Part shown: positions 13,617 through 20,381 of the stretch, one piece after another | Numbering within the stretch: the stretch's first letter is position 1 | Layout of the letters: each line of letters opens with the position of its first letter | DNA from: Archangiaceae bacterium | GTDB lineage: Bacteria > Myxococcota > Myxococcia > Myxococcales > Myxococcaceae | NCBI GenBank assembly: GCA_016879935.1 | Contig: JAACJQ010000164.1 | Span: 1 to 52,846, forward strand | Length of the DNA: 52,846 nucleotides | Reading direction: 5' to 3' | The notes under the pieces: generated by a model | Told to the model about the DNA's origin: nothing | Database searches by the model: none | The model's input: the letters and a program-made list of their open reading frames with translations, nothing else | Program-made: the position numbers and the translations under genes

Positions 13617-16600
13617 TCACTCCGCGAAGCGCAGGTACACCTTCCACGGGCCCGAGCCACAGCGCTCCTGCCACGCCACCACGAAGCGCCCGTCGAAGGT
13701 GGCGATCTCGGGTCGATCGGCGAAACACGACGGGTCGTTGTTGAGCATCGTCGACGGCATGCCGCTGCGAACGGGCCCGGGCTGCCGTGTCGCGCTGTTG
13801 TCGACGATGCGCAGCTCGAGCAGGCCACCGGTCGCGACGGCCAGCATCGGGGTGGCCTGGTTCGTCGCGACGTCGAAGCTGCTCGCTCCTGTCGCGAGGT
13901 TGTAGGGGCCTGCGAAGCAGCTGATGGTGCAGAGGTAGTCGACGGTGCCGCTCTGGCGCACCCACATCGGGCCGCCGCCGCCACCGCCGCTGTTGACGCT
14001 GAAGGTGCGCACGTCGACGAAGGGCCCACCAAGCGGCGTGAGCGCCGTGAACGTGGTGCCGTTGAAGGAGAAGGGCCGCAGCGTGCCCGTGGTGCTCGAG
14101 CGCCCAGCGACGTTCAGCGGCGCGTTGCCTGCGTACGAACCAAACCCGATGGGGTCGCTCGCCGGCCCGACGCTGAACTCGACGGTGTCGGTGCTGAGCG
14201 TGGCGAAGGTGCTCCACGTGCCGCCGTCCCACGTGGCGAGCTTGAAGCCGCCGTCGTCGGTGAAAGGCGAGAACAACCCGCCGGGGCTCGCGAAGACGGT
14301 GCCTGGGGGCTGCGCCGGCAGCGGGGCCCAGCCGTTGTTCCACCGCCACGTCACCGCAGGCGTGCCCTGAAAGTCGGCGAGCTGCAGCGTCGCGAAGGGC
14401 TGGTTGTTGAGCAGGTGCCCGCGATGCCCGCGCGGCAGGGGGCCGGTGAGCGGCGTCGCTGGCGCCGTCGTGTCGTCGGGACTGATGCACGGTGGCGCGG
14501 AGCAGCTCGTCGGGTCGAAGGGCAGGCTGGCCCACGCCGCGCCATTGCGCCGCCCGACGAGGAACACCTGCAGGGGTTGGCCCGGCGCGGGCACGCGCGC
14601 GATGACCGCAGGCCACACCTCTGACGTCGAAGACCACGAGGTCTCCCACGCGGGGCCCCACGGGTTCGTCGCGATGAAGGGAATGTTGGTGGTGCCGAGG
14701 AACGTGTTGGCCGGAGTGGCGAGGTCTTCGACGCCCGTCACGCGCAGCTCGTACTGGTAGCCGGGCGTGAGCGGCGGCCGCTGCATGAGCCACACGCGTT
14801 TGCCGTCGACGATGCGGGCCACGGTGCTGGTCGCAGGCCCGGGCCCGAGCGGGTTGATGACGAGGTTGTTCAACGACGAGGGCGCCGCCGAGATGTCTTC
14901 GTCGAAGTCGACGAAGGCCGACCACGTGCCGGTGTGCCCGAGCCCCACGCTCGTCGCGGCGATGAGCGGCTTGCGGTTGTCGACGACGTTCACCGTGAGC
15001 CGGCTGCTGGCGCTCGAGGGCGTGAGCACGCCGCCCGTGTCGGTGGCCGTGAAGGTGAAGGTGATGGGCCTGGGCACGGGGCCGTCGACGCGTGGCGAGA
15101 TGAACGAGGTGACCTGCTGTGTCGGGTCAGACAGCTGCCAGTCGGCCACGCCACCATCGGGCTCGCGCTCGGGCGACCAACGGAAGGTGAAGCCCGCGTC
15201 GGGCTGCGGAGACGAGACGCTACCCGCCAGCGTGACGAGCGCTCCGACGCCCACCGTTCGTGATGGACCCGCATCGACGGTCCACTGCGGGAGCGCGCCC
15301 GTGGTGAGCGTGAAGACGGCAGGGCTCGACGCGCCGGTGAGCGTCAGCCCGTTGGTCACGGTGAGGCGCACGGTGACGGGCACCGCGGTGACGACGGGGC
15401 TTGGCATGTCGAGCTGCACGAGCCCTCCCGTGAGCGGCGTGACGACGATGCCGAGGTTCGACGGAGAGACGCTCCACGCGTAGTCGACGATGCCGGAGTT
15501 GTTCGGGTCGCTGCTGGTCGCACCACTCAGAATCACCCGCTGGCCGCCCGCGACCGAGGTGGGCACCTGGGTGATGGTGGCGATGGGCGGCACGGCGACG
15601 GGAACCTGAACCGAGACCGGCGCGCTGCGCTGACCCGCGAGGTCGACGACGCTCAAGCTGAACTTGAGCAGCGTCGGGCCCGAAGGCGCGGTGAGCCGAA
15701 CGGTGGCCGCGACGGGTGAGTTGTTCGGCGAGATGGTGAGCGCTGGCCCCGCGTCCTGAGCCCAGAAGTAGGTGAGCGACGGGCCTCCGGTCGAGCGCTG
15801 GCCGCTCAACGTGAACTGCGTGCTGGGCGTGACGTACGCCGGCGCATCGAGAATGGCGGTGGGCGGTGGCGGTCCTGCGTCGACTCCAGAATCCACCCCG
15901 GCGTCGACGCCCGCATCGAAGCCGGCATCGAGACCCGCATCGAAGCCGGCATCAACACCCGCATCGAAGCCGGCATCAACACCCGCATCGAGTCCTGCGT
16001 CGACTCCGGCGTCGTCGACCCCCGCATCCACTCCCGCGTCGACACCTGCGTCGACGGGTGTACCTGCGTCGTAGCGGGGAAGACCGGCGTCGAGGCTGAC
16101 GGGCTGTGAGTCACCGGGCTCGAGCGTGAGGTCGCGCACCACGACGACGGGAGCGCCGATGACGAGGTTCACCAGCGTGGCCGTTCGGTATCCCTGTTTC
16201 TGAAAGCCGAGCGAGGCGATGCCGAACCCGACGCCACGAAAGACGTAGACGCCCTGCGCGTCGGTGGTGGCGGTCGCTCCACTCGAGAGCGTCACGGTCA
16301 CGCCGTCGGCTGGCACGTCGCCAGGCAACAACACGCGCCCGCGCACTTCGGCCACCATTCCGCCCGGGTCGGGCTGGAGGGCGATCTTCTTCAGCGTGAA
16401 GACCTCGGCCGCGCGCACCTCGATGCTCTCGATCTCGGCGCGGTAGCCCGGACGAAACGTCGAGATGGTGAGCAGCCCCTCGGGCAACGAGTCGAGCAGG
16501 AACGAGCCGTCGTCGGCGGTGTAGGTGAAGTACGGGCCCTCGGGCACGAGCACGCTGGTGCCTCCGTGGCCGCCCGTGGTGAGCACGTCTTGCCGCACCA

Positions 16601-16994
16601 CCTGGCCGCGAATGGCGCCGTTGCTGCCGAGCACCACCTCGCCGAGGTTCACGATTTTGCCCGGCCCCGCGCCGAGCCCCTGGAGCCTGATGAGGCGCTG
16701 CTTGTCGAACCGGCCATCGCCCTCGATGTCGAAGCGAATCGCGATGGAGCCGGTCGAACTGCTGACGGGGCTGAGGGTGAAGGCGCCCGTGTCTTGATTG
16801 GTGCGAACGGAGACGCCGCTCCCGACGAGCTCGACGATGGCTCCCCCGGCGGGCCGCAACGAGGTCTGCCCCGGCACTGCGTACACCACCGACCCGACGA
16901 CGCTCCCGCTCGGCGCCGGCGGCGGAGGACCGGGCAGCTGGAGATCGAAACAACCTGCGGCCAGCACGCAGAGCAACGCCGATACTCGTCTCAA
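13617..16994 (-). CDS. large modular surface lipoprotein (carboxypeptidase-regulatory-like, DAG linker, PKD-like domains)
   Basis: A 1125-residue predicted lipoprotein. The TTG at 16994, preceded by a GGGGG stretch, gives a compact lipoprotein signal peptide with lipobox LAAGC (Cys15); the frame continues upstream but overlaps the next gene and adds no signal. Residues about 30-300 hold three carboxypeptidase-regulatory-like beta domains (VGSVVYAVPG, RGQVVRQDV, RGRVLLPGDV). Residues about 308-371 are a VDAG/FDAG/LDAG repeat linker. PKD- and Ig-like domains follow (about 380-740), with a Big-type strand SAFVDFDEDIS. The C-terminal 330 residues look like beta-propeller strands with Trp-Asp-Gly motifs (KLATWDGGTWSTF). 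It probably acts on the outer surface by binding; no catalytic motif is seen. It may be co-transcribed with the small membrane protein upstream. Confidence 0.85.
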   Translation of the reverse strand: MRRVSALLCVLAAGCFDLQLPGPPPPAPSGSVVGSVVYAVPGQTSLRPAGGAIVELVGSGVSVRTNQDTGAFTLSPVSSSTGSIAIRFDIEGDGRFDKQRLIRLQGLGAGPGKIVNLGEVVLGSNGAIRGQVVRQDVLTTGGHGGTSVLVPEGPYFTYTADDGSFLLDSLPEGLLTISTFRPGYRAEIESIEVRAAEVFTLKKIALQPDPGGMVAEVRGRVLLPGDVPADGVTVTLSSGATATTDAQGVYVFRGVGFGIASLGFQKQGYRTATLVNLVIGAPVVVVRDLTLEPGDSQPVSLDAGLPRYDAGTPVDAGVDAGVDAGVDDAGVDAGLDAGVDAGFDAGVDAGFDAGLDAGFDAGVDAGVDSGVDAGPPPPTAILDAPAYVTPSTQFTLSGQRSTGGPSLTYFWAQDAGPALTISPNNSPVAATVRLTAPSGPTLLKFSLSVVDLAGQRSAPVSVQVPVAVPPIATITQVPTSVAGGQRVILSGATSSDPNNSGIVDYAWSVSPSNLGIVVTPLTGGLVQLDMPSPVVTAVPVTVRLTVTNGLTLTGASSPAVFTLTTGALPQWTVDAGPSRTVGVGALVTLAGSVSSPQPDAGFTFRWSPEREPDGGVADWQLSDPTQQVTSFISPRVDGPVPRPITFTFTATDTGGVLTPSSASSRLTVNVVDNRKPLIAATSVGLGHTGTWSAFVDFDEDISAAPSSLNNLVINPLGPGPATSTVARIVDGKRVWLMQRPPLTPGYQYELRVTGVEDLATPANTFLGTTNIPFIATNPWGPAWETSWSSTSEVWPAVIARVPAPGQPLQVFLVGRRNGAAWASLPFDPTSCSAPPCISPDDTTAPATPLTGPLPRGHRGHLLNNQPFATLQLADFQGTPAVTWRWNNGWAPLPAQPPGTVFASPGGLFSPFTDDGGFKLATWDGGTWSTFATLSTDTVEFSVGPASDPIGFGSYAGNAPLNVAGRSSTTGTLRPFSFNGTTFTALTPLGGPFVDVRTFSVNSGGGGGGPMWVRQSGTVDYLCTISCFAGPYNLATGASSFDVATNQATPMLAVATGGLLELRIVDNSATRQPGPVRSGMPSTMLNNDPSCFADRPEIATFDGRFVVAWQERCGSGPWKVYLRFAE
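15878..16072 (-). repeat. tandem 12/24-base repeats encoding a (V/F/L)DAG linker
   Basis: Inside the lipoprotein gene, the minus strand repeats a 12-base unit coding xDAG about 15 times, partly organised as 24-base units alternating VDAG and FDAG. The plus strand shows this as repeated gcatcgaagccggcatc blocks. Because the unit is a multiple of three, copy-number changes keep the reading frame and only alter linker length. This is a repeat-instability hot spot and a low-complexity spacer between two surface domains. Confidence 0.85.
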
Positions 16995-17100
16995 GAAGAC
17001 CCCCAAGGCCTGTCGTCGGAGCACGGCGACGGAGCCGCGCTGATACCAGCAAATGCGCTGTGGGCGAGCCTCTCCGAGCCGAACCACCGGGCGCAATGCC

Positions 17101-17403
17101 TCAGGGCCGGGCTGCGGCTTCGATCGCGCCCACCACGAGCCCGATGCCCGCGAGCCCCGCGACGATGGCGCACCCCAGGAGCACGGCGCCGAGGGTGGTG
17201 CGTTCGGTCTTCGCCAGCAGCCACGTGCCCGAGCCGGGCAGGAGCAGGAAGAGCACGCCCACGGCGGCGATGACGAGGTCGATGGCGCGATCACTGTCGG
17301 AGACGCTGTCGCGGAACATCGAGGCCAGCACGAGCGCGGCGCCGCTGATCGACAGCGAGGCGAGCCAGCTCACGACCACGAGAATCCACCGCAGGGCAGA
17401 CAT
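17101..17403 (-). CDS. small membrane protein, three hydrophobic segments
   Basis: A 100-residue hydrophobic protein: a first membrane helix or uncleaved signal (RWILVVVSWLASLSISGAAL), a second (IDLVIAAVGVLFLLLPGSG), and a third near the C terminus (LGAVLLGCAIVAGLAGIGLV). The short loops carry one Arg-Asp and one Lys-Thr-Glu-Arg cluster. No family is recognised. It lies between the dikinase-like gene (78 bases upstream) and the large lipoprotein gene (106 bases downstream), all on the minus strand, so the three may be one transcription unit. Confidence 0.65.
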   Translation of the reverse strand: MSALRWILVVVSWLASLSISGAALVLASMFRDSVSDSDRAIDLVIAAVGVLFLLLPGSGTWLLAKTERTTLGAVLLGCAIVAGLAGIGLVVGAIEAAARP

Positions 17404-17481: not shown

Positions 17482-20235
17482 TCAGAGCAGGCTGAGCAGG
17501 TACTCGTTCGGCGTGCTGAACAGCACCTCGACCGCGCAGGTGAGCCCGCCGCCCTGAAACGACGCCGACTCACCCACGAAGGTGAACGTGCCGTCGGAGC
17601 GAAGCGTCAGCGCCTTCACGTGCGCAGTGCTCGCGCCCGCGGTGGTCGGTGTCGCGCTCAGCTGCCAACCACCGGTGCTCGGGTGCGAGGTCGACGCGAG
17701 CTGCGGGTGCTCGAGCGTCCAGCCGCTCCCACTGGTGCCCTGCAGCTCGGGCACGTCTTGCGTGTAGACGAGGGTGACCGACCCGGTGAACGGCGTCGTC
17801 GCGTAGCCGAGGTCGGGAGGGAGCAACGGGTCGGTGAACGCCTCGACGACCACCACCTTGAATGCCTCGGCCTGACACGTGCGTCGCTCGATGCGCCGCG
17901 CACGATTGAACACGTCACGCGGCAGCGCCTGCGCGCGTGCAGTGGCGTTCGCCGTTCGCACGCCGTGCTCCAACGAGCGGGCCTGCTTCAGCACGATGCG
18001 TGACGGGTTCGGCGGGCCACCCGCGAGCTGCGGCCAGCCTTCGAAGACGTGCCGAAACTCGAAGTCGAGCACGAGCGTGCCGGCCTTCTGCGCCGCCGAG
18101 CGCGAGCGGTTGTCCTGAGCGAGCCAGGCCGTCGCCACCGCGTGCGCACGGGCGAACGTCTGCCGGAGCGCCGCGTCGTCCATCAACTGCACGCCCGCAG
18201 GCACGAGCGTCGAGCTGCGCAGCCTCTCGATGCGGGGTTCGCCCGGGTTCGCGGCGTCGAGCGTGACGCGGTCGATCTCGGGCAGCGCGGTCGACGTGGG
18301 GTTGGTGACGCTCACCGCCAGGTGCTGAACGTTCAGCTCCATGGTCGCGAAGTCGCGGCCCAGCGTGAACAGGAACACGCCGTTCGATTTCTCGAAGTCG
18401 TCGGCGAAGTTCGCGTGCACCACCACCGCCATGTTCCCGCTGAGGTGGTCGACGTTCTCGAGCTTGCGCTCCTCGAAGGCCTCGGCGCTCCAGTACGAGG
18501 CCCAGGTCTTCTTGAGCGCCCACTCGACGCCGTGCGTGCGGTCCGACGGCTTCGGCGCCGAGGCCGGGTCGAGGTAGCCGGTGTTGGAGTCGTACAGGCC
18601 CGCGCCGTTGAAGCCCTCGACGTCCTCCGCCGTGCTCGAGGAACGAAAGCGCAGGCCCTGCGTCTTCGCGTAGTGGCCGAACTTCGCCTGGAGCGCAGAG
18701 GTGATGGCCGTGAGCGTCGCAGGCGCGATGGGTCGCTCCCGAATGGTGCCCTTGAGTCCAGTGCCGCGCGCCAGGTCTCCGAGCGCCGTGCCCGCCGGGT
18801 GTGACGAGAGGAAGCGGTTCTTGAGCGTCGTGTCTGCCGCCGTCGTGTACGTCGAGTCGAACGCCGCGCTGCCTTCGAGCACGAGAAAGCGGCTCCGCGC
18901 GTCGTCGAGGAACATGCCGTCGGTGAGCATGACCATCAGCGTGGGCTGGAGCGGCGCGACGTGCTCGGCGTAGCTGCGAATCGAGATGCCCACGAGCGCA
19001 TCGGGCGTCGCGTCGGGGGCTCCGGCCAGCAGACCCAGGTAGCCCGTCGCCTTGCCGCCGAACGCGGGCCGAACGGTCTCGGCGTCGGAGAGTGACAACG
19101 CGCGCAGGTCGGCCGTGTACGGCAGCGTGGAGACGTCGACCTGCGTGACGGCCACCAGCGGCTTCACCATCAGGCTCTGCCAGATCTGCAGCTGGCCGTC
19201 GGTGATCTGCTTCACGATGAGCTGATCGGGAGCGCGGGCGCTCATCACGACGGGCTCCCGGTAGTACGCGAGCGTCTCGAGCTCGGCGTCTTCGAAGACG
19301 CCGGCGCGGTACACGTTGGGAATGCCGCGGTTGCGCGCGAGCAGGTTGAAGTGCGCGAGCGGCGTCTGCGGAACGGCGGTCACCACGCCGCTGGCCGGTG
19401 GAAGAACGTCGGGAACGTCTTCGAGCATCAGCAGCGAGCTCGACTTCGCGCTCTCGAGCGAGGCGCCAGACTTCAGCCGCAGCAGCCGGCCCGCCGTGAG
19501 GCCCGCGCTGTACACCTCGACCTCGCCGGGAACCGTGAGGTCCTTCTGGCGAAGAATGCGGTCGTGAAACCGCAGCTTCCCCTGCTCGAGCGTCTGCGCG
19601 AACGCCTCCTGCGTGGGCGACCGCACGAGCCACCACACGTTGTTCGCGACCTCGGGCGGAACGTTCGCCAGCACGGCCTCGAAGAACGTCACCAACTCCT
19701 CGTGCGTGACGGCGTCGCCGAACTCGAGCTGAAAAGCCCAGCGCTCCGGGCGGGGACCCTTCGCGGCGACGTGCATGAGCGTGCCGAGCCCGAACGAACG
19801 TGGTCGGCGGTAGAGCGCGAGGTCGTAGAAGGCGGGCAGGTAGAGGCGGCCGTCGTCGACCCACTGCATGCCGAGCGGCAGCGCGAGCGAGGCCTTCGCC
19901 CACGCGTAGATGTCGGCGACGGTCGCGAACTGCTGGCCCGTCACCGGTCGCAGGCTCTCGACGCCCGGCGCCGGCTGGCCGTTGAGCAGGCGGAACATCA
20001 GCCACTCGTCGTGCAGCTTGTAGAAGTGGTTGTCGTAGAACGAGATGGTCGGGTGGCTGACGAACTCGCTGATGACGAACTTCGTCTCGGCGCGGCCGTG
20101 TGCCTCGATGGAGAGCTGCTCCCAGGTCGCGAGCGAGTCGATGCTCGGGCGGGTGTGGTCGTCGAAGCCTGTGGTCGGTTGCAGTGGAGGCGTGCACGCC
20201 AGAACGAACGGAAGGACGAGCGCCGGGAATCTCAC
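17482..20235 (-). CDS. predicted exported PEP-synthase/glucan-water-dikinase-like protein
   Basis: A 917-residue protein with an N-terminal lipoprotein-type signal (MRFPALVLPFVLACTPP, candidate Cys14). Residues about 275-312 resemble the swivelling phosphohistidine domain of PEP-utilizing enzymes: ASGVVTAVPQTPLAHFNLLA with candidate catalytic His295, then RNRGIPN. Residues about 388-755 resemble the PEP-synthase/dikinase ATP-grasp domain: FGGKATGYLGLLAG (392-405), FRSSSTAEDVEGFNGAGLYD (530-549), an acidic LDFEF (723-727) and the closing RIVLKQARSLE. The His domain before the ATP domain is the order of glucan and phosphoglucan water dikinases, and GAGLYDS matches those better than PEP synthase. 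Known relatives transfer the beta-phosphate of ATP via His, usually in the cytosol. The export signal is therefore odd. The N-terminal 270 residues and C-terminal 150 residues (beta-rich) are unrecognised. Confidence 0.75.
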   Translation of the reverse strand: MRFPALVLPFVLACTPPLQPTTGFDDHTRPSIDSLATWEQLSIEAHGRAETKFVISEFVSHPTISFYDNHFYKLHDEWLMFRLLNGQPAPGVESLRPVTGQQFATVADIYAWAKASLALPLGMQWVDDGRLYLPAFYDLALYRRPRSFGLGTLMHVAAKGPRPERWAFQLEFGDAVTHEELVTFFEAVLANVPPEVANNVWWLVRSPTQEAFAQTLEQGKLRFHDRILRQKDLTVPGEVEVYSAGLTAGRLLRLKSGASLESAKSSSLLMLEDVPDVLPPASGVVTAVPQTPLAHFNLLARNRGIPNVYRAGVFEDAELETLAYYREPVVMSARAPDQLIVKQITDGQLQIWQSLMVKPLVAVTQVDVSTLPYTADLRALSLSDAETVRPAFGGKATGYLGLLAGAPDATPDALVGISIRSYAEHVAPLQPTLMVMLTDGMFLDDARSRFLVLEGSAAFDSTYTTAADTTLKNRFLSSHPAGTALGDLARGTGLKGTIRERPIAPATLTAITSALQAKFGHYAKTQGLRFRSSSTAEDVEGFNGAGLYDSNTGYLDPASAPKPSDRTHGVEWALKKTWASYWSAEAFEERKLENVDHLSGNMAVVVHANFADDFEKSNGVFLFTLGRDFATMELNVQHLAVSVTNPTSTALPEIDRVTLDAANPGEPRIERLRSSTLVPAGVQLMDDAALRQTFARAHAVATAWLAQDNRSRSAAQKAGTLVLDFEFRHVFEGWPQLAGGPPNPSRIVLKQARSLEHGVRTANATARAQALPRDVFNRARRIERRTCQAEAFKVVVVEAFTDPLLPPDLGYATTPFTGSVTLVYTQDVPELQGTSGSGWTLEHPQLASTSHPSTGGWQLSATPTTAGASTAHVKALTLRSDGTFTFVGESASFQGGGLTCAVEVLFSTPNEYLLSLL

Positions 20236-20381
20236 GGCCGTCCTGGAAGCAAGCGCTGCTCCAGTGGGGAGGGCAGTGCCTGTGCGGTGTTGTCGGTGAG
20301 CCCCTCAGTTTTCCGTGGCCCGTCGGGGCCTTCGTCGTCGAAACACGGTGGCCGCCTCATTCGTTTCGCGCTTTTCTGCGG

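Follow-up and report, generated by a model that had tools for sequence, protein, structure and literature searches.

A candidate exported dikinase with its phosphohistidine domain ahead of the ATP-grasp domain in an Archangiaceae bacterium

To our knowledge, dikinases of the phosphoenolpyruvate (PEP) synthase and glucan water dikinase (GWD) types are cytoplasmic or plastidic enzymes that require ATP. The window analyzed here, 52,846 nucleotides of contig JAACJQ010000164.1 from an Archangiaceae bacterium, contains on its reverse strand a gene (17482-20235) whose product appears to combine the domains of such enzymes with a lipoprotein signal, which raises the question of whether an exported protein of this kind may be a working dikinase and, if so, of which type. 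The reading frame claimed by a first-pass annotation was found at these positions and encodes 917 amino acids, and the motifs listed there (TPLAHFNLLA, FRSSSTAEDVEGFNGAGLYD, LDFEF and RIVLKQARS) are every one present in the protein. The gene starts with GTG, with a Shine-Dalgarno-like AGGA (20241-20244) five bases upstream, and shows 91% G+C at third codon positions. All features described below lie on the reverse strand.

Domain architecture and active site

From the N to the C terminus the protein comprises the lipoprotein signal, an N-terminal domain (NTD), a His swivel domain, an ATP-grasp domain and a C-terminal beta domain. The only family that a Pfam search of the 917 residues recognizes is PPDK_N. 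The AlphaFold model of the whole protein has a mean pLDDT of 75.6 with a poor swivel part; for residues 23-385 alone, the best model reached a mean pLDDT of 84 and the other four 67-70.

The ATP-grasp domain, of the PPDK_N type, was delimited by Pfam, alignments and structure to residues 368-760 (17956-19134). The first-pass annotation had made its assignment dependent on PF01326 (PPDK_N), which matches residues 494-620 with 30.2 bits against a gathering score of 27, and matches nine of nine family members at E<=1. A profile of 25 superfamily members, 20-57% identical to the query, covers the entire ATP-grasp domain of PEP synthase (E 3.4e-36; query 374-697 to chain 8-369). The modeled domain superimposes on the rifampin phosphotransferase RPH-Lm with a Z of 25.2 (rmsd 2.9, 291 aligned) and on PPDK with a Z of 18.8.

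The phosphohistidine swivel domain, delimited by alignments, profiles and the model, spans residues 232-352 (19180-19542), with the putative catalytic His295, in PQTPLAH, encoded at 19351-19353 as computed from the translation. PF00391 (PEP-utilizers) has no match in the query protein, and GWD1_pHisD (PF22973) none at E 1; the His295 region proposed earlier was nevertheless recovered by profile and structure searches. Profile positions 272-338 align to residues 387-455 of the PEP synthase swivel, and with the 25-member profile query residues 244-313 match residues 387-458 of that swivel as a separate second match. Modeled residues ~233-344 resemble the RPH-Lm phosphohistidine domain (Z 8.4, rmsd 3.0, 99 aligned), as well as those of Enzyme I (Z 8.1) and PPDK (Z 6.9). 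These Z-scores are modest when taken alone, yet the sequence profile and the predicted fold agree on one domain and one histidine. One feature speaking against an active dikinase is the PQ found in the query's family where PEP synthase and HpeH have a GG loop ahead of the catalytic His. Two members, L002 and L072, show a TPNSH or TPSSH swivel motif, not TPLSH, together with a long C-terminal extension and a near-threshold PF00391 match.

Concerning the active site, H295, K395, R531, E537, D538, D724, E726, Q751 and R753 are all invariant in the nine orthologs (query included). In the 25-member alignment, which has 19 invariant columns, H295, K395, R531, E726, Q751 and R753 are still invariant. 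In RPH, Lys22 and Arg117 position ATP and His825 is catalytic (PMC4844700), and K395, R531 and His295 of the query are their equivalents. Hence the ATP site is complete, and the loss of its residues in most homologues, which would have counted against the earlier reading, was not observed. Since 25 members share an invariant swivel His as well as the ATP-site Lys, Arg, Glu, Gln and Arg, catalysis has most likely been kept in the superfamily, and the earlier suggestion that it was lost finds no support down to about 20% identity. Five members (L003, L011, L012, L013 and L021) have PCAGCYxSH in place of the GAGLYDS loop, which puts two extra cysteines at the ATP-site loop, possibly forming a disulfide or a metal site.

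The NTD (residues 23-231; 19543-20169), delimited by Pfam, alignments and the model, is common to the superfamily, whose members combine NTD, swivel and ATP-grasp in this order; conservation of K52, H75, G151 and D174 reaches at least 90%. The first 270 residues had been called unfamiliar, which holds for the NTD at ~23-231, as it belongs to no Pfam family, whereas the remainder is the beginning of the swivel domain. Matches from structure searches with the 23-385 model cover mainly the swivel.

The beta-rich C-terminal domain (residues 780-917; 17485-17898; from alignments and the model) is present here as described earlier, but its long form is found in only some orthologs: it is shortened in those from Acidimicrobiales and absent in most other superfamily members. 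A phmmer match to a fasciclin protein (E 0.003) is absent from the profile searches and was rejected as a chance match; Foldseek matches to kievitone hydratase, AttH-like proteins and MHC chains had query-normalized TM-scores below 0.1 and were ignored.

Relatives, genomic context and known dikinases

A scan of genome contigs yielded eight orthologs with 36-57% identity, from two Archangium metagenome-assembled genomes (MAGs), one deltaproteobacterial MAG, three Acidimicrobiales MAGs and two unassigned bacterial MAGs. Searching the phylum with a profile gave matches in 60 of 195 Myxococcota genomes, roughly a third of those sampled; some 14 represent orthologs of the window gene, in part truncated at contig ends, while the others belong to paralogous subfamilies. 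With the swivel profile alone, 28 of 58 genomes gave matches, almost all of them in reading frames that also carry the ATP-grasp hits. In a quickly built tree of ATP-grasp regions from the superfamily and one distant outgroup, the nine orthologs cluster together with support inside the superfamily. The window's own genome holds three superfamily members; the profile match of the third (L096; G000:C130:7898-9928) spans one in-frame TGA, which appears at or near the gene end. Searches with the gene in phage and defence libraries and in a plasmid collection gave zero matches.

Comparison of the window with the ortholog loci revealed no conserved operon partner, and neighbours are shared only between close relatives, e.g. 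L041/L048, L045/L047 and L092/L093 (L094 and L041 being the same record). The scanned neighbours in the window encode a protein with PKD and carboxypeptidase-regulatory-like domains, a bestrophin, an MshEN/HEAT protein and an RDD protein, and offer no lead to an acceptor. The first of these (13617-17294, reverse strand) is large and carries a long DAGVDAGxDAG repeat; as a lipoprotein-type signal lies inside its reading frame, translation probably begins further downstream than listed.

In GWD and phosphoglucan water dikinase (PWD) the phosphohistidine domain precedes the ATP-grasp domain, as it does in the query. These enzymes are plastidic, bind starch through CBM45 or CBM20 and act on alpha-glucans, whereas the query is a lipoprotein whose NTD is of no known family. 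In GWD the conserved His992 is essential (PMC12892837). RPH (5HV1-5HV3) is the closest structural match for both the ATP-grasp and the swivel domain of the query, and its swivelling His is analogous to the mechanism predicted here; it is, however, intracellular, with the order ATP-grasp, rifampin-binding domain and swivel, and the query has no recognized rifampin-binding domain and scores 15 bits with the NCBIfam equivalog for rifampin phosphotransferase, whose cut-off is 999. PEP synthase (8A8E, 2OLS) and PPDK (1DIK) have homologous ATP-grasp and swivel domains, but they are cytoplasmic, carry the swivel after the ATP-grasp and end in a PEP/pyruvate barrel. The query has the reverse order, as first noted, no match to the PEP-utilising barrel PF02896, and 21.7 bits with NCBIfam PEP_synth against a cut-off of 739.75. 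The two-component dikinases HpeHI, CreHI and PpsAB unite substrate-binding and swivel domains on one chain and pair it with an ATP-grasp protein, and an H-I fusion would yield the domain order of the query (PMC12167813). Those are separate proteins of aromatic catabolism with an RPH-like substrate domain, whereas the NTD of the query has no recognized family; by analogy with the HpeHI protein, the NTD is likely the acceptor-binding part. By their own defining features, then, the query is not a GWD, PEP synthase, PPDK or RPH, and judged from sequence and model we would describe it as a new form of His-swivel dikinase, permuted and exported. Our literature searches turned up no description of exported dikinases.

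Lipoprotein signal and export

The predicted signal, identified from the sequence and the orthologs, occupies residues 1-14 (20194-20235) and reads MRFPALVLPFVLA followed by Cys14, with a mature N terminus of CTPPLQP. It is short, with 13 residues ahead of the Cys, and shows the features of bacterial lipoproteins, i.e. an n-region, a hydrophobic stretch and a lipobox (VLA before Cys14) ending in Cys. The Cys is aligned in nine of nine orthologs, which bears out the lipoprotein-type N terminus first proposed. Of 42 superfamily frames, some of them incomplete, 21 show a lipobox under strict criteria, compared with 10 of 156 control ORFs, more than expected by chance; further members have a signal when inspected by eye, and L019, L025 and L027 show Sec-type signals lacking the Cys.

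Further observations agree with export. Cys787 and Cys900 in the C-terminal domain are conserved in nine of nine orthologs and predicted to form a disulfide, and in seven of the nine there is no further Cys between the lipobox and this pair, a pattern as expected for a disulfide-bonded exported protein. PPC domains are found in secreted proteins, and L022 carries two of them, above the cut-off, ahead of its dikinase-like part; L066 has a fused PPC domain with a sub-threshold match and L070 a weak DUF4215 match. Finally, the AGGA precedes the GTG that includes the signal, and a downstream start removing it, which would have counted against the earlier reading, did not turn up. Thus, four agreeing lines (lipobox, Cys pattern, PPC fusions and AGGA) support export and speak against its being a misreading, as the first-pass annotation had allowed.

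Lipoprotein sorting in M. xanthus sends proteins with Lys at +2 to the inner membrane and those with Ala at +7 to the matrix (PMC3222651). As CTPPLQP has neither, the outer membrane would be the default under these rules, and the mature sequence points to this destination. It should be noted that one clade supported in the tree (L007, L008, L009, L018, L064 and L068) has no classical signal, and may use another secretion route or act intracellularly; hence part of the superfamily may work inside the cell. Its proteins start with a Pro/Ala/Ser-rich stretch that is probably disordered.

Proposed activity and alternatives

By sequence and structural criteria the query looks like a working dikinase, and since the ATP-positioning residues and the catalytic His are invariant, we infer that it is active and draws on nucleotide in an extracytoplasmic setting. 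To the specific proposal of a dikinase anchored in the outer membrane, passing phosphate from ATP through His295 to an acceptor held by the NTD, we give an even chance. In RPH the catalytic His accepts the beta-phosphate, which then travels with the swivel domain to the acceptor (PMC4844700). Here, the ATP-grasp domain would bind extracytoplasmic ATP with Mg2+ and His295 would take over the beta-phosphate while AMP and phosphate are set free, as happens in PEP synthase, RPH and GWD; the swivel would then turn to the NTD, where a hydroxyl group of the bound acceptor would be phosphorylated. As no partner gene travels with the query gene, the acceptor can only be guessed at: it might be a small secreted molecule or a glycan of the surface, the matrix or prey.

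It is uncertain how such an enzyme would be supplied with ATP. Many myxobacteria are predators, and the ATP might come from living or lysed cells, prey included, lysed prey being a conceivable further supply. The explanations first offered for an exported dikinase (another phosphodonor, lost catalysis or misread export) omit the simplest, extracellular ATP, which is present in bacterial cultures (PMC3882102). Scarcity of ATP outside the cytoplasm would instead favour an exported swivel phosphotransferase with a donor such as another NTP, pyrophosphate, polyphosphate or a phospho-metabolite, or one working in reverse, so that surface compounds carrying phosphate would yield ATP; the PPDK of bacteria and protozoa is reported to work in the direction of ATP formation (PMC5371819). 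The equivalents of RPH Lys22 and Arg117, which contact the nucleotide phosphates, are invariant, however, which suggests that the nucleotide site has been kept, and we regard a non-ATP donor or reverse reaction as unlikely.

An exported pseudoenzyme, a dikinase scaffold that now binds a ligand or a surface and is devoid of catalysis, would fit the extracytoplasmic location, a PF01326 score just above the cut-off and the unmatched PF00391. Inactive enzyme families normally lose some of their key residues, whereas here the swivel His and key ATP-site residues persist across 25 divergent members, which makes this reading quite improbable. Much the same low probability applies to a true GWD homologue acting on external alpha-glucans, i.e. 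starch or glycogen from prey or plant debris. The swivel-first order and a real PPDK_N domain, both part of the original GWD-like label, stand, and in several superfamily members GWD1_pHisD fits the swivel better than any other family, although it exceeds its cut-off in a single distant one (28.8 against 27 bits) and is sub-threshold in the others. Membership itself is not borne out: besides the missing GWD1_pHisD match in the query, neither CBM20, CBM45 nor any other carbohydrate-binding domain has a Pfam match in the query or its eight orthologs, and among the scanned neighbours no carbohydrate-enzyme gene was recognized and none is conserved. Least probable is an ordinary cytoplasmic PEP-synthase-like enzyme with a chance hydrophobic N terminus, which would agree with the action of the characterized relatives named above (GWD/PWD, RPH, PEP synthase, PPDK and HpeHI) inside cells or plastids but runs against the four lines of evidence for export.

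Returning to the exported, ATP-using dikinase, we extend this proposal to the family more tentatively, at slightly less than an even chance: a large and so far unnamed superfamily, common in Myxococcota and present in Acidimicrobiales too, whose members would be extracytoplasmic His-swivel dikinases and would use extracellular ATP to phosphorylate molecules of the surface, the matrix or prey. Structures of GWD and PWD are still missing (PMC12892837), and small, single-chain, swivel-first relatives of these enzymes would then become available. If the proposal is true, phosphohistidine-based ATP chemistry would take place on the bacterial surface, in a conserved set of exported proteins with intact active sites, and extracellular ATP would gain a concrete enzymatic use in myxobacteria.
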